Positions 34,976-63,448 of a stretch of DNA of 64,000 nucleotides are shown piece after piece (within the stretch, counting starts at the first letter, position 1; each line of letters starts with the position of its first letter). A program made the position numbers and the translations under genes. The DNA is from a virus, in IMG/VR virus record IMGVR_UViG_3300020442_000005, positions 124,001 through 188,000 of that record, one strand, 5' to 3'. Under the pieces are notes generated by a model. That model was not told the DNA's origin. It saw only the letters and a program-made list of their open reading frames with translations, and did not search any database.

Positions 34976-36028
34976 ATGATAGTATTTACAAACAAATTAT
35001 TTGGGACAGCAAATCACTTGATATATCGCGATGGTTACGAGTGGATTGATGATATCCCCACCGGCGCATTCGTTTATGACGGTATGCATAAATATTCAGT
35101 TTCAGAGTGGTTTAGTATCACAGGTAGCGCAGTGCCACTACTGGTCGACGAAAAATATAAAAAAATGGCTGATGAGCTAAATTTAGAAAACCCATGTTGG
35201 CATAAACTTTTAGGCAACGCATTTAAGAACAGTTTAAAATCAGTATCTGAATCAACAGCTAGAATGATTGAAAATTGTAGTTATAAAGATTATGAACAAA
35301 CTTGGCGTGAGTGTCAAGATTTCATGTGGTCTATGAAGCCCGTAAAAATAAACAGGGCAAGATACGCATCATTAAAAGCGTTAAACGTTAACTTACCAGG
35401 ATTCAATCCTGTCACCGGTTCTCTTGATCCTGTACTGTATGACAGAAAAACAAAGACTGGACGTCTAAGAGTAATCCAGGGTCCTTCGGTTTTAACAATA
35501 AAGTCTGAACATCGAAACATAATAAAAGGATGTCGGCAGATAGATTTTAAAAACATGGAACCGCGATTGTTGTTGGCTTTTCTAGGTAAAGAGATAGAGG
35601 GTGACCTGTACAGCAAAATACAAAAGGATCTGAACCTGAAAGGTGATCGATCGTATGTAAAAGTATCAATTATTTCTTCTTTATATGGTTCTCGTGTAGT
35701 ACCTGAAATATCAAAATATTTTGCTATACCATTTTGGATAGAAGAGCTTGAAAAAGATATAAACGACGGTTGGATAAGAAATTACTTTGGTCGACCCATC
35801 AATGTCGAGAATGTAACTGGCCATCATCTTTTAGCTCTTTGGTTACAATCTTCGGCCGCTGACGCAGCACTATTAGCGTTCAGTAAATTTTTCAAATCAC
35901 GTCCGGACTTAACTCCCCATTGGCTTATTCACGATGCATGTATATTTAGTGGCGATGGCGATATACCAGAATACTTATATATAAACGACGATATAAAACT
36001 ACCAATTGATTGTACGGTGATAAAATGA
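34976..36028 (+). CDS. Compact family A DNA polymerase palm protein
   Basis: A 350-residue protein with the landmarks of Pol I family palm and fingers at the right spacing: TGRL at 161-164; motif A with D190, E195 and R197 (IDFKNMEPR); motif B with R225, K229 and Y237-G238; FGRP near 271; QSSAAD near 291-296; motif C H319-D320, where the usual Glu is Ala321. It lacks any 3'-5' or 5'-3' exonuclease domain. Together with the separate flap nuclease at 40150 it could do the work of a split Pol I. No Shine-Dalgarno is visible before the ATG. It might be active in repair or primer replacement, since a DnaE-like replicase is also encoded. Confidence 0.75.
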   Translation: MIVFTNKLFGTANHLIYRDGYEWIDDIPTGAFVYDGMHKYSVSEWFSITGSAVPLLVDEKYKKMADELNLENPCWHKLLGNAFKNSLKSVSESTARMIENCSYKDYEQTWRECQDFMWSMKPVKINRARYASLKALNVNLPGFNPVTGSLDPVLYDRKTKTGRLRVIQGPSVLTIKSEHRNIIKGCRQIDFKNMEPRLLLAFLGKEIEGDLYSKIQKDLNLKGDRSYVKVSIISSLYGSRVVPEISKYFAIPFWIEELEKDINDGWIRNYFGRPINVENVTGHHLLALWLQSSAADAALLAFSKFFKSRPDLTPHWLIHDACIFSGDGDIPEYLYINDDIKLPIDCTVIK

Positions 36029-36579
36029 CACTTCTTGATTTACTAGTTGAAAAAAGTTCAAAGAAAAAAGACGGCTATCGAGTTGTCCCGGGCCCGGCAA
36101 GGGCACTATTAGCAGGTCGGCCAAGTAAAAACATTAAAGATTTAAAGTTGCGTGTTGCATCAGACCCAAGTGGACTGCTAGACGATTTAGGAATCGAACC
36201 CAACTCTATAAGTGAAAACGACGATTCAATTTTATTTTTACATGAAGCGTTTGAGCAAATGATATCAAATGCGACCGGTAACGAAAAAGCACGGCTACTG
36301 CAAGATTTATTTGATCAGCCGGAATTAGTTCAGTCTCGGCTTACGGGAAGAAAAGCAATTTTAATAAAGTTATCGGGTGAAGGCATCAGGTTAGCGCAAG
36401 CTGATGCACGTCGTTTTTTGCGGACATACGCCTTCTGGTTTTCTTCTACGACAGAAGCACTTCAAATTACAAATAGCCAGCTAAATCTTAATCTTACTGT
36501 TAACGTAAAATTCCAATACATAGAGGGCGAAAACGCTATCTTAGTATTTAAATCACGAAGAGCGTGGACCAGCTTGTAA
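36025..36579 (+). CDS. Hypothetical protein
   Basis: A 184-residue protein whose ATG overlaps the polymerase stop (ATGA), so coupled translation is likely. It is mixed charged, with a helical middle (SILFLHEAFEQMISNATGNEKARLLQDLF) and a C-terminal beta part. No motif is recognised. Coupling to the PolA-like gene suggests a replication partner, which is inference. Its last codons carry the promoter for the next gene. Confidence 0.55.
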   Translation: MTLLDLLVEKSSKKKDGYRVVPGPARALLAGRPSKNIKDLKLRVASDPSGLLDDLGIEPNSISENDDSILFLHEAFEQMISNATGNEKARLLQDLFDQPELVQSRLTGRKAILIKLSGEGIRLAQADARRFLRTYAFWFSSTTEALQITNSQLNLNLTVNVKFQYIEGENAILVFKSRRAWTSL

Positions 36580-36623: not shown

Positions 36624-37160
36624 ATGTCTGATATTGAAATATTACAAAAAAACTACGAAACATTTACAACAGTACTACAAAAACTTGAGAACAAAGGCTT
36701 GATCGATTTTGTTGAAGAACTTGGCGATGACTTGGTCATGTCTCCGGCTGCAGCCCAAAAAGATGAATATGGATGTTTTTCCGGCGGCATCATCGATATG
36801 GCGCTTAAACTTTCGCAAAGTATGCGAAAATTAGATATGGTTGCCGGATACAATGCCAATGTTGAAAGCATTTATAAAGTTGCGTTTTTGAGAGCAATTG
36901 CAGAGTGTGGCGATTCAAAAGAAAGAATGTTTGAACCACATGACTCAGATTGGCATATTGAGAAACTTGGTCTTTTATATAAAAGAAACCCAAAGTTGAA
37001 CGGTACAACGTGGACAACAAGAGCAATTGAAATTGCAACAGTCAAACAAATCAACCTAAATAGTGAAGAAGTTATGGCACTACTAACGGCTGCCAATGAG
37101 CATCCATACAATGATTTGGCAAGATTATTAAAATCTGCAAATACTTTACTGGTTAAGTAG
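36624..37160 (+). CDS. HD-hydrolase-like protein, possibly degenerate
   Basis: A 178-residue protein with a strong ribosome binding site (TAAGGAGG). Residues about 86-135 (FLRAIAECGDSKERMFEPHDSDWHIEKLG, then LLYKRNPKL) resemble a phage HD-domain family whose usual form reads LLHDLGKIG...SDWHREKLG..Y.YNP. The HD pair at the start is missing here (IAECGD), while DSDWHxEKLG is kept. It may be a degenerate nucleotide hydrolase or an adapted binding protein. The family call is tentative. Confidence 0.45.
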   Translation: MSDIEILQKNYETFTTVLQKLENKGLIDFVEELGDDLVMSPAAAQKDEYGCFSGGIIDMALKLSQSMRKLDMVAGYNANVESIYKVAFLRAIAECGDSKERMFEPHDSDWHIEKLGLLYKRNPKLNGTTWTTRAIEIATVKQINLNSEEVMALLTAANEHPYNDLARLLKSANTLLVK

Positions 37161-37955: not shown

Positions 37956-38759
37956 ATGGCTATTGATTTTGATGCAATTCGCAAAAAACTAAACGCTCTT
38001 TCCGGCGCTAACTCGAAACGACGAGTAATGTGGCGTCCACCAGAAGGAGAAACTGTCAACGTACGTATTATCGGATTTACAGATAATGACGGTAATCCTT
38101 TTAAGGAACGTTGGTTTTACTACAACATCGGCAATAATCCAGGTCTTCTTACTCCTCACCAATTTGGCAAGCCAGATCCTATTCAAGAGTTGATTCAAAA
38201 CTTGAAATCAGAAGGCACCAAGGAATCTTACGAAATGGCTAAAAAGCTGTATCCTAAGATGCGTACATATGCTGCAGTTATTGTACGCGGAGAGGAAAGT
38301 GAAGGAGTTCGACTTTGGGCATTCGGTAAAACTGTTTATCAGTCATTACTAAATATCATGCTCGATCCGGATTATGGCGATATTACAGATATCCATGAAG
38401 GTCACGATATTAAGGTAACATGTACAAAGCAACCTGGAAAAATGTTTGCAATGACTGACGTAATGCCGAGACCAAAGGCAACTGCGTTAGGTACAAAAGA
38501 TCAAATCAAAAATTGGACTTCTGATATTCCAAACTTAGATGACATCTACAGCCTTAAAACATACGAGCAACTTGAAAACATTATTAACGCCTGGTTAAAT
38601 GGCGACAATGAAGAAGATGGCGACGACGAACCAACTCAACGAGAGCAGGTAAAAACTTCAACGCCACCTAAATCAAAAACTCGTGGGCCAACAAACAAGA
38701 GCTACGGAGATAATATCGACGATGCTTTTGCAGATCTAGATCAAGACCTAGGCTTCTAA
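37956..38759 (+). CDS. 32: Single-stranded DNA binding protein, gp32-like
   Basis: A 267-residue protein (T4 gp32 is 301). The N-terminal basic part (DAIRKKLNALSG) corresponds to the cooperative-binding segment. The OB-fold core reads MWRPPEGETVNVRIIGFTDNDGNPF, WFYYNIGNN, then MRTYAAVIVRGEESEGVRLWAFGKTVYQSLLN. The C-terminus is acidic (NGDNEEDGDDE, DDAFADLDQDLGF), the usual partner-binding tail. I see only one Cys, so the T4 zinc site is absent. Ribosome binding site: TGGAGTAATAATC. It is followed by a terminator. Confidence 0.88.
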   Translation: MAIDFDAIRKKLNALSGANSKRRVMWRPPEGETVNVRIIGFTDNDGNPFKERWFYYNIGNNPGLLTPHQFGKPDPIQELIQNLKSEGTKESYEMAKKLYPKMRTYAAVIVRGEESEGVRLWAFGKTVYQSLLNIMLDPDYGDITDIHEGHDIKVTCTKQPGKMFAMTDVMPRPKATALGTKDQIKNWTSDIPNLDDIYSLKTYEQLENIINAWLNGDNEEDGDDEPTQREQVKTSTPPKSKTRGPTNKSYGDNIDDAFADLDQDLGF

Positions 38760-38871: not shown

Positions 38872-40068
38872 ATGGCAAAAAAGAACAAGGAACAAGATTT
38901 TACTTCGGACCTTATTAAATCTTTGAATAAAGACCACGGCGCACGCGTTGCATACAATTTATCTGTTGATGATTCGCCAACACATGTTGATCGATGGGTA
39001 TCGACAGGTTGTCATCAGCTTGACTACATTGTTTCTGGTCGACCAAACGGTGGATTGCCAGTAGGTAGAATTGTTGAAATCTTTGGTCCACCATCAATTG
39101 GAAAATCACACATCGCAATACAAATTGCAAAACACACGCAGGAAATGGGCGGGATCGTAGTATATATTGATACTGAAAACGCAACATCAGTCGATAATTT
39201 GGCGTTGTTAGGAGTTGATATTTCGAAGAGATTCGTATACGTCGACACCCATTGTACGGAAGAGGTACTAAGCATTGCAGAAAAAACTATTGTGAAAGCA
39301 AAAGCACTGCAAAAAGATGTACCTATTACGATTATTTGGGACTCCGTTGCTGCTACATCACCAAAAGATGAGTTGTTAGGAGACTACGACAAGCAAACTA
39401 TAGGACTGAATGCCCGCGTTATCTCAAAAGGAATGAGAAAAATTACAGGAATCATTGCAAATGAAAAAGTTTTATTTATTTGCTTAAATCAAATCAGAAC
39501 TAAAGTTGGAGTTATGTATGGAGATCCTACTACTACACCCGGGGGTAAGGCAATCCCTTTTCACTCGTCTGTACGAATCAAATTGGGAGCAGGACAACAA
39601 ATCAAAGACAAAAAGGGTAACATTATTGGGATTAATGTTTCGGCGAAAACGATAAAAAATAAAGTAGCTCCTCCGTTTCGTACTGTTAATTTCGAAATTC
39701 ATTTCGGAAAAGGCGTATATGAACACGAGCAAGCCTTTGATGTTCTTCGTAGATTCTGTAAAGACAATGGGCCAGTTTCCTTTGGTCCATATCAAATCAC
39801 TGTTGAAGGAACTGGAGCTTGGAAGACATTAATTGTCGTAGAAGAAAAGACCGGTGAAACCAAAATAGAGAAAAAGTTTTATAAGACTGATTTTGGCGAA
39901 GTATGGCAAGACGATCAGTATAAGCCTTATGTAAACGCAGTATTTTGCGCCGCATATGCAGATATAGTCGGAGATTCATTTAAATCTGCGGATATTAGTG
40001 CTGATTCGTACGAAGAAATGCGACAGATATCAATGGATCTTGGCGATGACTTTGTAGATCCGGAATAA
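38872..40068 (+). CDS. recA: RecA-family recombinase
   Basis: A 398-residue strand-exchange ATPase. Walker A is GPPSIGKS (72-79), followed by IVVYIDTENA; the Walker B-like strand is ITIIWDSVAA; the DNA-binding loop region reads LFICLNQIRTKVGVMYGDPTTTPGGKAIPFHSS. This is closer to bacterial RecA than to T4 UvsX. It would act with the SSB upstream in recombination-dependent replication and repair. The C-terminus is acidic. Ribosome binding site: TAAGGAGATTAGTT. Confidence 0.88.
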   Translation: MAKKNKEQDFTSDLIKSLNKDHGARVAYNLSVDDSPTHVDRWVSTGCHQLDYIVSGRPNGGLPVGRIVEIFGPPSIGKSHIAIQIAKHTQEMGGIVVYIDTENATSVDNLALLGVDISKRFVYVDTHCTEEVLSIAEKTIVKAKALQKDVPITIIWDSVAATSPKDELLGDYDKQTIGLNARVISKGMRKITGIIANEKVLFICLNQIRTKVGVMYGDPTTTPGGKAIPFHSSVRIKLGAGQQIKDKKGNIIGINVSAKTIKNKVAPPFRTVNFEIHFGKGVYEHEQAFDVLRRFCKDNGPVSFGPYQITVEGTGAWKTLIVVEEKTGETKIEKKFYKTDFGEVWQDDQYKPYVNAVFCAAYADIVGDSFKSADISADSYEEMRQISMDLGDDFVDPE

Positions 40069-40149: not shown

Positions 40150-41115
40150 ATGACTGATGGACCTATTCTTTTAATCGATGCTTACAATGTTTTTGCACGC
40201 GCGTACTGTGTTGTGCCACTGATGTCGTCACACGGGCATCATTTGGGCGGAACAATTGGATTTATGAAATCATTATCAATGTATATTGAAAAATTTAAGC
40301 CTTCTCGCGTAATTGTGTGTTGGGAAGGAGGCGGTTCAGCCAGAAGAAGACAAATTCTTCCAGAATACAAACTGAATCGTAAACCCATTAAGTTAAACCG
40401 ATCGGATATCTATGAGGATATACCAGATACGGCCGAAAATTTTAATTATCAAGTTGCTTTACTCACGAATCTGTTAAAACACATTCCAGTTCAACAAGTT
40501 TACGTCGGAGAATGTGAAGCTGATGATATTATCGGATATATTTGCCGATATGAGGTACCAGACCAAGAAAAGATCATTGTTTCTATGGATCAAGATCTTC
40601 ATCAGCTGTTATCTCACAACGTTGTGCAATATTCTCCGGCATCTAAAAAAATGTTAGACCAGAATTATGTTCTAGAAAGATATGGAGTAAGTACAGAAAA
40701 TTTTATTACTGCAAGATGCTTTATTGGTGATAGTTCTGACGGTATATCAGGCATAAAAGGTTGTGGTTTTAAGTCATTAGTAAAACGTTTTCCAGAACTA
40801 AAAAGTCCGGAGTTTGTTAGCGTCGACGACATAATTAAATTGTGCGAAACAAGAAACGAACAGAAAAGCTACAGTATGTTTCGAAACATTCTTGCTCAAC
40901 CTGACATACCTAGAAGAAACTGGAAACTCATGTACTTAGACAATTCGAATCTATCAGCAGAACATGTAAAAAAACTTAAATATTCTGTACAAAACTATGA
41001 ATTGAGTAAAAATAAGTTTAATCTTATAAAGGATCTAGTTTCTGAAGGTCTAGACATGCCACGCGGATTTGACGTGGACAGACTATATCTTCGCATTAAT
41101 TCTTGTATCAAATAA
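40150..41115 (+). CDS. 5'-3' exonuclease / flap endonuclease
   Basis: A 321-residue protein of the family that includes T4 RNase H and the 5' nuclease domain of Pol I. LLIDAYNVFARAY gives the first acidic ligand (D10); VIVCWEGGGSARRRQILPEYKLNRK, then ECEADDIIGY, MDQDLHQLL and ARCFIGDSSDGISGIKGCGFKS supply further acidic residues and the helix-hairpin-helix region. It would remove RNA primers and flaps. With the exonuclease-free PolA-like protein at 34976 it may form a split Pol I. Confidence 0.85.
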   Translation: MTDGPILLIDAYNVFARAYCVVPLMSSHGHHLGGTIGFMKSLSMYIEKFKPSRVIVCWEGGGSARRRQILPEYKLNRKPIKLNRSDIYEDIPDTAENFNYQVALLTNLLKHIPVQQVYVGECEADDIIGYICRYEVPDQEKIIVSMDQDLHQLLSHNVVQYSPASKKMLDQNYVLERYGVSTENFITARCFIGDSSDGISGIKGCGFKSLVKRFPELKSPEFVSVDDIIKLCETRNEQKSYSMFRNILAQPDIPRRNWKLMYLDNSNLSAEHVKKLKYSVQNYELSKNKFNLIKDLVSEGLDMPRGFDVDRLYLRINSCIK

Positions 41116-41127
41116 CCAGAGGTAAAA

Positions 41128-42549
41128 ATGGGTAGTGTAAAAGTTGCTGCAGCAGTGGCAAATACCAACTTTAGTATGATCGGCTATGGAAAGGCCTTTC
41201 AAGAAAAAATATTTCAAGGCATGGCAACAGATAAAGAATGGGCTCAGCAAATGCATGAGGTGATGAGTCCGGAATATTTTGATTTAAAATATCTGCAATA
41301 TCTAACTAGTCATTATTTCAAGTATTTCGATGATTACAGATGTTTTCCCACCATGCAGCTTCTTATTCAGATAGTAAGGGACGAACTTGCCAGCGATACG
41401 GCTGATCAAATGCTCAAAGATCAGATCGTTGCTTTCCTTCAAAGAATGAGAATGAATCAGCATCCGGAAGATCTGCCTTATGTAAAAGAAAAATCTTTAC
41501 AGTTTTGCAAAAGACAAGCTTTTAAAGAAGCGTTAACTAATGCTGTTGAGCTAGTCCAGGGAGAACAGTTCGAGGAAGTAGTCGATTTGATGCGAACCGC
41601 TGTTTCTGTTGGAATGCCTCAGTCGATCGGTCACGAGTTCTTTAACGATGTTGAAGCTAGATTCCAGGAGATAACAAGGATCACAACGCCAACTGGAATC
41701 CCGGAGCTAGATCAGAAAGATGTCCTAGATGGTGGCCTTGGCCGCGGAGAGCTTGGTGTAGTAGTTGCACCAACCGGTGTTGGGAAATCACACTGGCTTG
41801 TAAATATGGGAGCCGAAGCATTGCGTCGAGGAAAGACTGTTGTTCATTATACTTTTGAACTCTCAGAAACACTAACCGGTAAAAGATATGATGCTAACAT
41901 TACTGACATTCCAGTCTCTGACTTGATTGACAAAAAAGAAGAAGTTCTTAGGCACTATGAAGATAACGAATATGGAAATTTGATTATCAAGTATTATCCT
42001 TGCAGATCTGCAAGCGTCAATACAATTAGAAACCACCTAGAAAAACTAAAATTGCGAAACTACACTCCTTCAGTCGTAATAATCGATTATGCCGACGTCA
42101 TGAAATCAACAAAGTCTTACGATGCTTTGCGATTAGAATTACAACTTATCTATGAAGAGTTAAGACAACTGGCGGCTGATTTTAACGTACCTGTTTGGAC
42201 AGCTTCTCAATCTAATCGATCAGGCGCTAACGCAGACATGGTTGGTTTAGAAAACATGGGAGAGTCTTATGGTAAAGCGCAAGTGTCAGACGTCGTGCTT
42301 GGATTGAGCAGAAAACCTGAGGAAAAAGCGACTGGCTATGCAAGACTTTTTGTTGCCAAAAATAGAGCTGGAATGGATGGCATTAATATGGTCATCAAAA
42401 TCGACACAGCGAAGTCAACCTTTAAGACCGTCTCGGCAGACGAAAAAGAAGAATATGATATATTGACGAATCCAAAAGAAAAAATGAAACAAATATGGAA
42501 TAAAGTCCAGACAGCAAAAAAGGAGTTAAACAATGGCCAGACGACGTGA
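41128..42549 (+). CDS. DnaB-family replicative helicase (gp41-like)
   Basis: A 473-residue helicase. The N-terminal 190 residues are helical, and the RecA-like C-terminal domain has Walker A APTGVGKS (about 214-221), THYTFELSET-like segment, and a Walker B region VVIIDYADVMKS. A Q/N-rich LTASQSNRSG segment follows the usual motif order. It would unwind the fork for the DnaE-like polymerase. No primase was identified in this window. It overlaps the reductase gene by 17 nt. Confidence 0.85.
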   Translation: MGSVKVAAAVANTNFSMIGYGKAFQEKIFQGMATDKEWAQQMHEVMSPEYFDLKYLQYLTSHYFKYFDDYRCFPTMQLLIQIVRDELASDTADQMLKDQIVAFLQRMRMNQHPEDLPYVKEKSLQFCKRQAFKEALTNAVELVQGEQFEEVVDLMRTAVSVGMPQSIGHEFFNDVEARFQEITRITTPTGIPELDQKDVLDGGLGRGELGVVVAPTGVGKSHWLVNMGAEALRRGKTVVHYTFELSETLTGKRYDANITDIPVSDLIDKKEEVLRHYEDNEYGNLIIKYYPCRSASVNTIRNHLEKLKLRNYTPSVVIIDYADVMKSTKSYDALRLELQLIYEELRQLAADFNVPVWTASQSNRSGANADMVGLENMGESYGKAQVSDVVLGLSRKPEEKATGYARLFVAKNRAGMDGINMVIKIDTAKSTFKTVSADEKEEYDILTNPKEKMKQIWNKVQTAKKELNNGQTT

Positions 42550-50902: not shown

Positions 50903-51760
50903 ATGAAAGCAAACTCTGCGCGCAAGTTAAGACATTTGGTTCGTCGTATCATCGTAGAATCACAAAGCTTGGATAATCAGATTCTCAGTAGATCTGATTA
51001 TATGCGTGGATTGATGTTATTTATTGAAAATAACCCGGGAACTACTACAGACGAAATGTTTGATTCTCCGGTTGCAAATGCAATTATTCCAATTGGTATA
51101 AGAGAAAGAGCAATATTGCTTTGGGTAAAGAAGCTAATCAAGGATGGTTTTATTATTTCAAAAAGATATAGGCTTTATTCAACTGGCAAAGCAGATTATG
51201 TAAATCACAATGTTGTTTTAGAAAACGTTATTATGGAAAGCGCCAAGTTCTCAAGTTATGATGCTTTCACAAGACAGGAAAATCTTGACCTTCGAATGAT
51301 GGAACATGATAAAGGTCATATCGATCTAGAAAACAATTCTGCAATTGCGAAAGCTTTTCAAGTATATTCGGAAACAACAACAGTTTCTTTGTTTCGCGGA
51401 ATATACAACACCGAAACACGGATGCTTTCAAATATGCAGCCAGGCGACACATTCCAATTTGGTCGTGTAACTTCACTATCAGAAAACTTTGAAATTGCAA
51501 AAAAGTTTGCAATAAATAAAAAAATCGTTGAGCTAGTACCAGGCACGAAAGGTTGTTTTAGTTTTGTCGATTTTCTGGTCGACTACTATGATGGATGGAA
51601 GCGAAAGGATCCTATGGACTACGAAATGCAGGATGGTGAATGGCGCAAAGGATCGGCGGAAAGAGAGGCCGAATGGTTCGTATCCGGGGATACACAATTT
51701 CAGCTTTTAGACGTTGCAGAAAGAGATGGAATGACCGTGTACAAGATCAAAACTCTTTAA
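50903..51760 (+). CDS. Tagged ADP-ribosyltransferase, Alt-like effector
   Basis: A 285-residue protein. Residues 1-20 (MKANSARKLRHLVRRIIVES) resemble the basic tag with IVE-S as a cut site. Residues about 30-100 look like a winged helix (ERAILLWVKKLIKDGFIIS). The C-terminal part has the three ART signatures: FRG (Arg165), TSLSENFEIAKKF (STS-like, 190-202) and EREAEWF with E255-x-E257. ADP-ribosyltransferases transfer ADP-ribose from NAD to a protein target. In T4, Alt is packaged, processed and injected to modify host RNA polymerase. This gene looks like its counterpart in the tagged family; the target is unknown. Confidence 0.68.
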   Translation: MKANSARKLRHLVRRIIVESQSLDNQILSRSDYMRGLMLFIENNPGTTTDEMFDSPVANAIIPIGIRERAILLWVKKLIKDGFIISKRYRLYSTGKADYVNHNVVLENVIMESAKFSSYDAFTRQENLDLRMMEHDKGHIDLENNSAIAKAFQVYSETTTVSLFRGIYNTETRMLSNMQPGDTFQFGRVTSLSENFEIAKKFAINKKIVELVPGTKGCFSFVDFLVDYYDGWKRKDPMDYEMQDGEWRKGSAEREAEWFVSGDTQFQLLDVAERDGMTVYKIKTL

Positions 51761-59842: not shown

Positions 59843-62800
59843 ATGAGTAGAACCCCGAAAAACTTTGTTGGTCTTCACGCCCATGATGGCTTTAGTACCT
59901 TCGATGGATTAGATTATCCGCAAGATCATATTGATTTCGTGATTGAGAATGGCATGAATGCGTTGGCAATCACAAACCATGGCCACATGAATTCATTTGC
60001 ACATGCATATTTGCATTCTCAAAAAGTAAATAAATCTGGAACGCCTTTTAAGTTCATTCCAGGGTGCGAAATGTACGTACATCCTGATTTGCAGGTTTGG
60101 CAGGCTCAATATGATTTGGCTCGTGCGAACAAGAAAGGTGACGATGTTGAAATCGCCAGATTAAAGGATCTTTTAAAAGAGCTGGATGCGCTAGCGTCTT
60201 CTGACGACAACGTTGCTGAAAGCGATACAGACGATGCTGGACTTACGGTTGAAAACGAAGAGGAAACAAAGTCAGGTAAGTTTTACGATCCAGTAAAAAG
60301 ACGGCACCACTTGGTTGTTTTGCCAAAGACCTCTGTCGGCTTGCAACGGCTTTTCCATTTGGTTTCTAGAGGGTATAAAGAGGGATTCTATCGCTTTCCA
60401 CGAGTCGATTATAATATGATCCGTGAAGCTGCAGAAGGCGGCCACATTATATTATCTACAGCATGCTTGGGCGGTCCGCTGTCGTATGAAGTATTCAGAC
60501 ACTTTCAAGACAAAGAGTTTGATGATTTAGTTCCAGAGTTGCTTGATGATTCTGCAACTATGGACAAAGTGATGGCGAGTGTAGAGACCGGCTACAATCA
60601 GCTGGTTGCATCTGTCGGTCCGGACAATCTTTACCTTGAATTGCAGTTTAACAGACTGAACGCACAGCATTTAGTTAATCGTGCACTCATTACTTTTGCG
60701 AAACAAAATAATCTAGAACACATGTTAATCGTGACTTGTGACTCTCATTATTCTCGCCCGGGACACTGGAAAGAAAGAGAGTTATACAAAAAACTAGGTT
60801 GGCTTGGCCACAAGAGTTTCGATCCATCCCAACTTCCACAGTCAATTGATGAGCTCAAGTGTGAGCTGTATCCTAAGAACGCAGAGCAGGTCTGGGACAC
60901 TTACAGAAAAACAACTGTAAACTATGAATGGTATAACGATGAAATCGTCTGTGACGCGATAGAGAGAACCCATCAAATTGCTTTTGATGTGATCGAGGAT
61001 ATTCATCCTAATACAGACATGAAGCTGCCGTCTTATACAATACCGAAGGGTAAAGATGCGAACACAGCAATGATAGAAGCGTGTAAAGCTGGTCTTATTA
61101 AAAAAGGCTTGCATCGTGACAGAAAATACGTTGATCAACTTAAGCATGAATTGAGAGTAATCTTTGACAAAGAGTTTGCAGAATATTTTATCACAACAAA
61201 AGCGATTATTGACCTTGCCAAAAAGCATATGTTTGTCGGACCGGGCCGCGGCTCTGGTGCTGGATCTCTAGTAAATTATGTTCTTGGAATTACAGATGTA
61301 GATCCTCTAAAATATGGTCTACTATTCTCGAGATTCATGGATCCTAACAGATCAGATTATCCGGATATTGACACGGACATTGGTGACCGCGATAAACTTC
61401 TTCACTTGATGCGTGATAAGTTCGGCCATGACAACATTGTACCCATTTCAAATTATAACAGGTTTCAGCTGAAGTCATTAGTAAAAGACATTTCAAGATT
61501 TTATGGACTTGATTTCTCATACGTGAACAAGGCACTAGCTCCACTTGAGCGTGATATAAAACAGGGACTACGTAACGATGGTGTAGAGCTAAATGGTCCA
61601 GTTCAGCCAACGTTCGAATGGGCTATGAAGTATTCTCCAGCTTTCCAAGAACTAATCGATAATCACCCTGAGATTGCTGAACCGATCGGAGTATTGTTTA
61701 AACAGAACAAGGCGCTCGGTCGACATGCTGGCGGTGTCATCGTCTCAGAAAACATTGCTGAGAGAATGCCGCTTATTATGGCAAAAGGTGAACTACAAAC
61801 ACCGTGGGTAGAAGGCGCGTCATACAAACACTTAGAGCATTTTGGTTGGGTTAAGTTTGATCTGCTTGGCTTAGAAACTCTTCGTATCATGGAACGCACT
61901 ATCGAACTTATTCTCAAACGTAAGAAAGGTTACACCGATGTTACATTCGGACAAATCAAATACTGGTTTGATCACAACATGGGTAACGATGTGATCGATT
62001 GGGATGACCAAGAAGTGTACAAGGTCTATGAAGAAGGTCGTTGGGCTGGCATCTTCCAGTGTACTAACAACGGCGCGCAAAGATTGTTTCAACGAGCAAA
62101 GCCAAAATCCATCCTTGATATTGCTGCTTTGACTTCAATCTATCGTCCTGGTCCGCTTGCTATGAGCATTGACAAGAAATACGTTAAGGCCAAAAACAAT
62201 CCGGAAGATATCAAATATGATCATCCCATTCTTGAGGAAATACTTTCAGAAACCTATGGAATGCTAGTGTTTCAGGAACAGACAATGGCCATCGTAAATA
62301 GGCTTGGCCAAATACCTTTGGATGAGTGTAACTCAATTCGTAAAATGATGAAACCACAGCAGTCCTCTGCAGAAGCAACGCGTAAAGCGAAAGCACTCAA
62401 AAGCCGTATTGTTGATGGGTTTATGGCATCCGGACTAGATCCATATCAGGCTGACAAGCTATACGCAAACATTATGAAGTTTACGGCGTATTCTTTCAAC
62501 AAGTCTCATGCTGTGGCATACGCTATGGACTCTTACTATTGTGCATGGCTGATGACATACTATGAAGAGGAGTGGCTCTGTGCATATCTAGAATCCATGG
62601 AAAAGAATGCAGACAAGCGTAACAAAGCATTCAGTGAAGTAAAAGCCCTGGGGTATGAAATCGTTCCAATCGATATTAATTATGCAACCGATTCTTGGGC
62701 TATCTTAGATGGAAAGAAGTTTATGCCTTCGTTCTCGTCTTGTAAAGGTATTGGAGATGCTGCCATTCATGAGATAATTGCTTTGCGTAATAAGCAGAAG

Positions 62801-63448
62801 GGCAAGCGTTTTTCTACCATCGAGTCTATCATGTACGACAAAGATATGGTTTGGCAGCTTTCCAAGTTTAATAAGAAGGCAATGGAGGCTCTGGTGAATA
62901 TTAAGGCCTTCGATTCTATGAATATAGTTGGCTTATCAAGTCGATTTGAGAATTACAATCATATGCGTGAGGCACTCATCCCGGGATGGCAAAAGTGGAA
63001 AAAGCGCCTGAAGAGTGATCCAAAGAGAGGCTATAACGATATGTTAGCGTCAATTGAGTCGACCGCAGGAACACCGGCGTTTACCAGGAAAGAAATCATC
63101 CAGAATGAAATGAATCATTTAGGATCTGTATCTATCGAAACATTGATACCGCCAAGATATATTGCACGATTCAACGAGGAACAATGGTCTCCAGTTGACG
63201 AGTTTGATAACCCTAACAAGCCCTATTGGTTCGTTGTTGTTCAGGCTGTAAAGAAAAAGACAAAGACTGGAAGAAATTATCTTCGATTGAAAATCATGGG
63301 ATCAAACGGAAAACAGTACTGGTGTAATTGCTGGGGCTGGAACGGTGTCGACACTGTGGATCCATACACGGTTTGTGTAGGTTACATTAGTGAAAACTCT
63401 TTTGGTAAGTCTACAAAATGGTCAAAAATGGAAATATTCCTTGGTTGA
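59843..63448 (+). CDS. dnaE: DNA polymerase III alpha-like (C-family) replicase
   Basis: A 1201-residue polymerase of bacterial DnaE type. The PHP domain opens the protein (HAHDGFSTFDGLDYP, ITNHGHM, GCEMYV, then TCDSHYSRP near 305), with the usual Asp of TDHG replaced by Asn. The palm has GRGSGAGSLV (about 465), catalytic PDIDTDIG (two Asp near 508-510) and VKFDLLGLETL (about 670). A helix-hairpin-helix and a C-terminal OB-like region (YWFVVVQAVKKKTKTGRNYLRL) follow. No DnaQ-type exonuclease is inserted. Preceded by TTTAGGAGTAATTT. It would be the main replicase. Confidence 0.9.
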   Translation: MSRTPKNFVGLHAHDGFSTFDGLDYPQDHIDFVIENGMNALAITNHGHMNSFAHAYLHSQKVNKSGTPFKFIPGCEMYVHPDLQVWQAQYDLARANKKGDDVEIARLKDLLKELDALASSDDNVAESDTDDAGLTVENEEETKSGKFYDPVKRRHHLVVLPKTSVGLQRLFHLVSRGYKEGFYRFPRVDYNMIREAAEGGHIILSTACLGGPLSYEVFRHFQDKEFDDLVPELLDDSATMDKVMASVETGYNQLVASVGPDNLYLELQFNRLNAQHLVNRALITFAKQNNLEHMLIVTCDSHYSRPGHWKERELYKKLGWLGHKSFDPSQLPQSIDELKCELYPKNAEQVWDTYRKTTVNYEWYNDEIVCDAIERTHQIAFDVIEDIHPNTDMKLPSYTIPKGKDANTAMIEACKAGLIKKGLHRDRKYVDQLKHELRVIFDKEFAEYFITTKAIIDLAKKHMFVGPGRGSGAGSLVNYVLGITDVDPLKYGLLFSRFMDPNRSDYPDIDTDIGDRDKLLHLMRDKFGHDNIVPISNYNRFQLKSLVKDISRFYGLDFSYVNKALAPLERDIKQGLRNDGVELNGPVQPTFEWAMKYSPAFQELIDNHPEIAEPIGVLFKQNKALGRHAGGVIVSENIAERMPLIMAKGELQTPWVEGASYKHLEHFGWVKFDLLGLETLRIMERTIELILKRKKGYTDVTFGQIKYWFDHNMGNDVIDWDDQEVYKVYEEGRWAGIFQCTNNGAQRLFQRAKPKSILDIAALTSIYRPGPLAMSIDKKYVKAKNNPEDIKYDHPILEEILSETYGMLVFQEQTMAIVNRLGQIPLDECNSIRKMMKPQQSSAEATRKAKALKSRIVDGFMASGLDPYQADKLYANIMKFTAYSFNKSHAVAYAMDSYYCAWLMTYYEEEWLCAYLESMEKNADKRNKAFSEVKALGYEIVPIDINYATDSWAILDGKKFMPSFSSCKGIGDAAIHEIIALRNKQKGKRFSTIESIMYDKDMVWQLSKFNKKAMEALVNIKAFDSMNIVGLSSRFENYNHMREALIPGWQKWKKRLKSDPKRGYNDMLASIESTAGTPAFTRKEIIQNEMNHLGSVSIETLIPPRYIARFNEEQWSPVDEFDNPNKPYWFVVVQAVKKKTKTGRNYLRLKIMGSNGKQYWCNCWGWNGVDTVDPYTVCVGYISENSFGKSTKWSKMEIFLG

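Follow-up and report, generated by a model that had tools for sequence, protein, structure and literature searches.

A highly diverged, nuclease-free family A DNA polymerase encoded with a standalone flap nuclease in large DnaE-bearing phages

The window analysed here, a 64,000-nucleotide stretch spanning positions 124001-188000 of a 273,025-base virus record (IMGVR_UViG_3300020442_000005), carries at 34976-36028 (+ strand) a real gene whose product is a strongly diverged member of the family A DNA polymerases. The product, here termed mini-PolA, is a 350-residue polymerase domain without an exonuclease domain. We favor, with a probability of roughly 60%, the reading that mini-PolA is a competent, proofreading-free, minimal family A polymerase and that Pol I function is spread over separate genes, serving to fill gaps and mature Okazaki fragments behind DnaE. 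The record comes from a large tailed phage of 273 kb, related to T4, and not a bacterium, since the record holds T4-type head genes (Gp23, prohead protease) together with phage replication genes. A ribonucleotide reductase is encoded in the window.

Translation of 34976-36028 confirmed the open reading frame, its length and the position of every residue named in the original prediction. Matched to E. coli Pol I residue numbers, the conserved elements follow one another on the + strand: TGRL (35456-35467; aligned to Taq TGRL), in which R163 corresponds to R668; motif A, DFKNMEPR (35543-35566; aligned to Taq DYSQIELR), with D190 (D705), steric gate E195 (E710) and R197; motif B, or O helix, RSYVKVSIISSLYG (35648-35689), with R225 (R754), K229 (K758), I233 (position 762) and Y237 (Y766), modeled by AlphaFold as a helix over residues 225-237; QSSAAD at residues 291-296 (35846-35863; aligned to Taq QGTAAD), with Q291 (Q849); and motif C, HDA at residues 319-321 (35930-35938), with H319 (H881), D320 (D882) and A321 replacing E883. 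These motifs had been described as lying at Pol I spacing, which holds inside the motifs (5, 4, 8 and 1 residues, as in E. coli Pol I) but not between them. The intervals equivalent to R668-D705, E710-R754, Y766-Q849 and Q849-H881 measure 27, 30, 54 and 28 residues in mini-PolA versus 37, 44, 83 and 32 in E. coli Pol I. Because the inter-motif stretches are 4 to 29 residues shorter than in E. coli Pol I, the fingers/palm core of mini-PolA is trimmed. Ahead of its first pair of long, thumb-like helices, the chain has only ~80 residues. The chain gave no nuclease match, in agreement with the earlier claim that both exonuclease domains are missing; the absent 5'-3' nuclease domain is encoded separately at 40150. 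Purifying selection acts on mini-PolA (pN 0.11 versus pS 0.80 in comparison with its nearest complete relative), expressed as pN and pS and not as dN/dS because synonymous sites are saturated.

Taken alone, window mini-PolA matched nothing in Pfam, PHROGs, the PDB or GenBank phages in single-sequence searches, and PF00476 had no match anywhere in the 273,025-base record. An alignment scan of GTDB genomes with window mini-PolA returned no annotated relative, and single-protein scans with distant family members recovered only themselves. A profile of the 34-member mini-PolA family matched Taq Pol I (E=3.8e-12), aligning TGRL, motif A, motif B, GR, QxxAAD and HD, and PF00476 matched 20 of the 34 relatives (best 1.2e-13). 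In this profile alignment, D190 and D320 are paired with the Taq catalytic Asp residues, a pairing by alignment and not by atom-level superposition. Structure prediction, suggested along with the original prediction, gave a Pol I palm/fingers fold (AlphaFold pLDDT 92.8, pTM 0.89) whose top Foldseek matches in the PDB were all Klenow-type Pol I (E=2e-8, probability 1.00), with a match to phage PolA as well. TM-scores were moderate (0.4-0.6) and rmsd mostly large, making the overall superposition loose, as expected because a trimmed domain is compared with a flexible multi-domain target; identity in the structural matches to Pol I was ~11-18%. Collectively, profile, predicted fold and co-conservation bear out a family A palm devoid of nuclease domains, and the relationship to family A is far beyond chance.

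The active site is strongly conserved. Among 43 distinct members, R163, D190, E195, R225, K229, Q291, H319 and D320 are invariant, as is R273; position 766 is Tyr in 40 and Phe in three, and the motif B Gly is kept in 42. Invariance of the first eight residues argues that mini-PolA should be catalytically competent. As judged from sequence, all residues for two-metal nucleotidyl transfer are present, with E195 the predicted steric gate for rNTP exclusion. In reading HDA, the window protein departs from the HDE criterion of family A at motif C. This was originally regarded as the peculiarity of one protein and is instead the family norm, the third residue being Ala in 35 members, Gly in four and Glu in four. 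That 39 of the 43 members have Ala or Gly where Pol I has E883 could signify a catalytically dead protein with a structural or regulatory task, a reading we consider highly improbable: four members are HDE, and both metal-binding Asp, the steric gate and the motif B Arg/Lys, Gln and His are invariant in 43/43. Moreover, the PolA of phage vB_Tt72 is naturally HDS and retains 76% activity when converted to HDA (S616A), compared with 4% for D615A (PMC9324360), indicating that HDA need not inactivate. Active-site invariance and these mutant data led us to reject a pseudo-enzyme. At position 762, all members of the mini-PolA family have Leu, Ile, Met or Val and none has Phe or Tyr, the residues found there in two outgroup PolAs. 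Leu762 is reported to make Taq PolA slower but more accurate (PMC6302109), and a residue of this type is more in keeping with an accessory enzyme than with a replicase.

The history of motif C was approached with a mini-PolA tree of 208 columns rooted on two phage PolA outgroups. HDE members form one clade (support 0.945) adjoining the root, a position suggesting that Glu was lost once and that Gly then arose twice; long root branches and weak deep nodes make this order tentative. T7-type RNA polymerases have HDS, without Glu, at motif C. The resemblance of HDA to HDS, together with a marginal PF00940 match in one member (E=0.08), might point to mini-PolA being a primase or RNA polymerase, which we judge extremely improbable in light of the invariant steric-gate Glu, the PF00476 matches to 20 of 34 members and the DnaG-type primase that the phage carries outside the window (locus L023, 14743-15675 of its own record; phrog_47 1.9e-52). 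A T7-type single-subunit RNA polymerase was rejected on the invariance of E195 and on PF00940 being marginal in one relative only, and a primase of Toprim or AEP fold on the predicted Pol I fold and the separate DnaG primase.

Genes downstream of mini-PolA, all on the + strand, encode a gp32-like SSB (37956-38759; PF08804 6e-12, phrog_1192 9e-27), a UvsX/RecA-like recombinase (38872-40068; phrog_97 1e-72), a FEN-type 5' nuclease (40150-41115; PF02739 1.9e-30) and a DnaB-like replicative helicase (41128-42549; phrog_19 2e-76). The standalone nuclease, correctly anticipated at 40150, is the proposed functional partner of mini-PolA. Also as anticipated, Pfam and PHROGs matches identify DnaE at 59843-63448 (+), a complete gene for a family C polymerase of the PHP-DnaE type that carries both the PHP and the catalytic motifs and is likely the main replicase. 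The interval between mini-PolA and SSB holds two open reading frames on the + strand without family matches. The first (36010-36579) overlaps the end of mini-PolA and was rejected as a hidden exonuclease or clamp, its model (pLDDT 81) having no significant PDB match. The second (36624-37160) is conserved, with a PGG...LHDIG...DSDWHREKLG pattern in the alignment of relatives that, by eye, suggests a degenerate HD-domain protein. Neither a ligase nor a T4-type clamp was found in the phage's own record; an ATP-dependent ligase was present in 3 of 12 records searched.

The remainder of the record displays an unusually rich metabolic and stress gene load in loci L018-L020 and L025-L026, comprising PrkA with SpoVR and DUF444, PhoH, SHMT, GroEL, SOD, UvdE, QueF and a sigma-70 factor. 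B12-dependent methionine synthase, SAM synthetase and AdoHcyase make up a near-complete methyl cycle. UvdE and MutM-like repair genes are present, as is a tmRNA gene (L018, 9008-9366) with tag peptide ANNNDNFEVALAA; six tRNA genes lie elsewhere in scanned loci. Within the window, 50903-51760 weakly matches a phage RNA polymerase ADP-ribosylase (phrog_832, 2.9e-8) and is a possible host-takeover gene.

Scans of IMG/VR yielded 14 mini-PolA relatives, similar in size where complete, and the window DnaE used as bait yielded 77 further viral loci. In a set of 50 DnaE records, for which longer records were chosen and which includes some near-duplicates, a family profile search found mini-PolA in 40, the phage's own record counted. 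All 10 records without mini-PolA are at most 70.5 kb, and each of the 29 records longer than 71 kb has it. These counts show constant co-occurrence within one lineage and not independent events, because the members of one viral lineage inherit their synteny. The mini-PolA group consists of widespread large phages, mostly aquatic. Across the 40 mini-PolA records, PF00476 matched at the mini-PolA locus only, from which we conclude that they hold no second family A enzyme. One relative has its UvsX-like gene in two ORFs around a ~1.45 kb insertion (L007, 5243-8025), the pattern expected of an intron or homing element. In several relatives (loci L079, L090-L093, L095, L103, L105 and L106) the DnaE match is 4.4-5.0 kb long rather than 3.6 kb, which suggests inteins or introns in the polymerase gene.

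That mini-PolA always accompanies DnaE in long records would fit a role as main replicase, or a share in bulk synthesis with one polymerase per strand; PMC7824862 suggests division of strands, or repair, for some two-polymerase jumbo phages. We nonetheless find such a role improbable for a protein of 350 residues with no proofreading domain, no recognised processivity factor and a slow-type residue at position 762, in a phage with a complete DnaE gene that retains its PHP and catalytic motifs.

The tie to the flap nuclease is equally regular. A FEN-type nuclease was found in 49 of the 50 DnaE records, and in 40/40 mini-PolA records it lies downstream of mini-PolA on the same strand at a distance of 3,497-5,981 bases (median 3,949), the gene order being mini-PolA, SSB, UvsX, FEN-type nuclease and then DnaB. 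Many relatives (G002, G005-G013 and others) have a second, shorter FEN-type nuclease (~270-330 residues) ~20-65 kb from the first; the phage's own record has one only. Twelve relatives encode a DnaQ-like exonuclease 684-805 bases downstream of mini-PolA and, as far as placed, form one clade of the mini-PolA tree. This 3'-5' exonuclease lies two genes past mini-PolA (for example L157, 2407-3294, and L158, 2288-3136, of records G039 and G013), and the copies inspected by eye have DEDD-type motifs. PF00929 and PF01612 were without match in the phage's own record, where no DnaQ-like exonuclease was found. In the 12 relatives, all three Pol I activities therefore stand side by side as separate genes, as these gene positions show; the exonuclease might instead serve DnaE.

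Divergence sets mini-PolA apart from its neighbors. Its identity to relatives is 24-48%, versus 45-80% for SSB, RecA, DnaB and ribonucleotide reductase and 39-71% for the nuclease, so that mini-PolA diverges faster than replisome neighbors and could have a different or variable task. An active family A polymerase might thus be devoted to extending recombination (D-loop) 3' ends that UvsX and the gp32-like SSB generate, to lesion bypass or to repair synthesis, in each case without proofreading. We consider this unlikely, albeit deserving of weight. Several features of mini-PolA agree with a recombination or repair task: it evolves faster than the replisome core, shares a module with SSB and UvsX and lies just ahead of them, has no proofreading domain and no DnaQ partner in its own record, and is accompanied by UvdE and MutM-like repair genes. 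Against such a task, the flap nuclease accompanies mini-PolA as constantly as SSB and UvsX do, and a Leu762-type motif B is reported to make PolA slower and more exact, not more lax (PMC6302109).

Gap filling beside a separate flap-cutting nuclease, as a step in finishing DNA, is probably the work of mini-PolA, judging by its motifs and neighbors. DnaE would perform bulk synthesis of the genome and DnaG would make primers. The flap nuclease (40150) would remove RNA/DNA flaps while mini-PolA would extend the upstream 3' end, filling the gap or displacing the flap, and the resulting nick would be sealed by a host ligase, proposed because no ligase was found in the phage's record. mini-PolA would thereby take the polymerase part of the Pol I job, in Okazaki maturation and in gap filling during repair and recombination. 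A role in gap filling or primer replacement had been predicted originally; it is strengthened by the flap nuclease pairing, which recurs in 40/40 records, and continues to draw on gene context. Of the companion claim that Pol I functions are split into two genes, the separateness of polymerase and 5' nuclease stands and a physical split of one Pol I gene is unsupported; the parts may have been assembled independently and not from one split gene. According to PMC13082043, B. subtilis DnaE and FEN are able to process Okazaki fragments without Pol I, so mini-PolA need not be required for this processing. More tentatively, and with less confidence than in gap filling itself, we propose that PHP-DnaE, a nuclease-free family A polymerase and a standalone flap nuclease, joined by DnaQ in one clade, constitute an arrangement beyond the jumbo phage schemes described in the papers cited here, with Glu lost once near the family base and the enzyme turned to a special task, which may be recombination-dependent synthesis and not Okazaki gaps alone.

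These families offer Pol I activities naturally on separate chains, which allows a direct test of whether nuclease and polymerase must be coupled within one chain, and their natural HDE/HDA/HDG series does the same for the question of whether the third carboxylate of motif C is needed. Small proofreading-free polymerases like mini-PolA may find practical use. Because Pfam, PHROGs and single-sequence PDB searches all miss mini-PolA in this phage, a second polymerase of a widespread group of large phages, most of them aquatic, would be annotated as hypothetical.

Among known systems, the Klenow-type Pol I domain (Taq, Bst and E. coli PolA; PF00476) shares with mini-PolA its fold, motifs A, B and C, TGRL, QxxAAD and the order of elements; mini-PolA differs in lacking both 3'-5' and 5'-3' exonuclease domains, in its trimmed inter-motif regions, in HDA for HDE and in Ile at position 762. 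The PolA of uncultured phage MedDCM-OCT-S28-C3 is split between two neighboring genes, each annotated as part of a DNA polymerase (BAQ93998/BAQ93999), but, unlike mini-PolA, occurs in an Autographiviridae context with HDE and Tyr at 762; it weakly matched one mini-PolA relative (E=0.8). RM378, considered as a split family A precedent, was rejected, its "DNA polymerase" piece being by eye a B-family-type exonuclease part and its "similar to DNA polymerase I" a standalone 5' nuclease. Phage vB_Tt72 PolA is, like mini-PolA, a phage family A enzyme without the motif C Glu, and is active as HDS, but has 703 residues and a strong 3'-5' exonuclease domain (PMC9324360). In bacteria missing canonical Pol I, a standalone 5' nuclease is usually found, according to PMC12926913; the PolA1-like and FEN combinations described there are cellular, whereas mini-PolA is viral and also without the 3'-5' exonuclease fold. 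Four replication schemes are laid out for jumbo phages, PHP-DnaE phages (subgroup 3.2) included, and the available sections of that paper mention no family A companion for the latter (PMC7824862). Marine jumbo cluster PGC_A is marked by a PF07733 DnaE (PMC9123017). Both resemble our phage in having their own DnaE-type polymerase, a likeness of polymerase type, and as described there differ from it in that here DnaE is joined with T4-type SSB, UvsX, DnaG, FEN and mini-PolA. The moraphage lineage was rejected as the same group since it uses PolB (PMC12619734). The mini-PolA branch may already be included in the 2023 family A reclassification (Czernecki et al.). What is new here is a combination of known parts: a minimal, undetected branch of family A in an unusual partnership.
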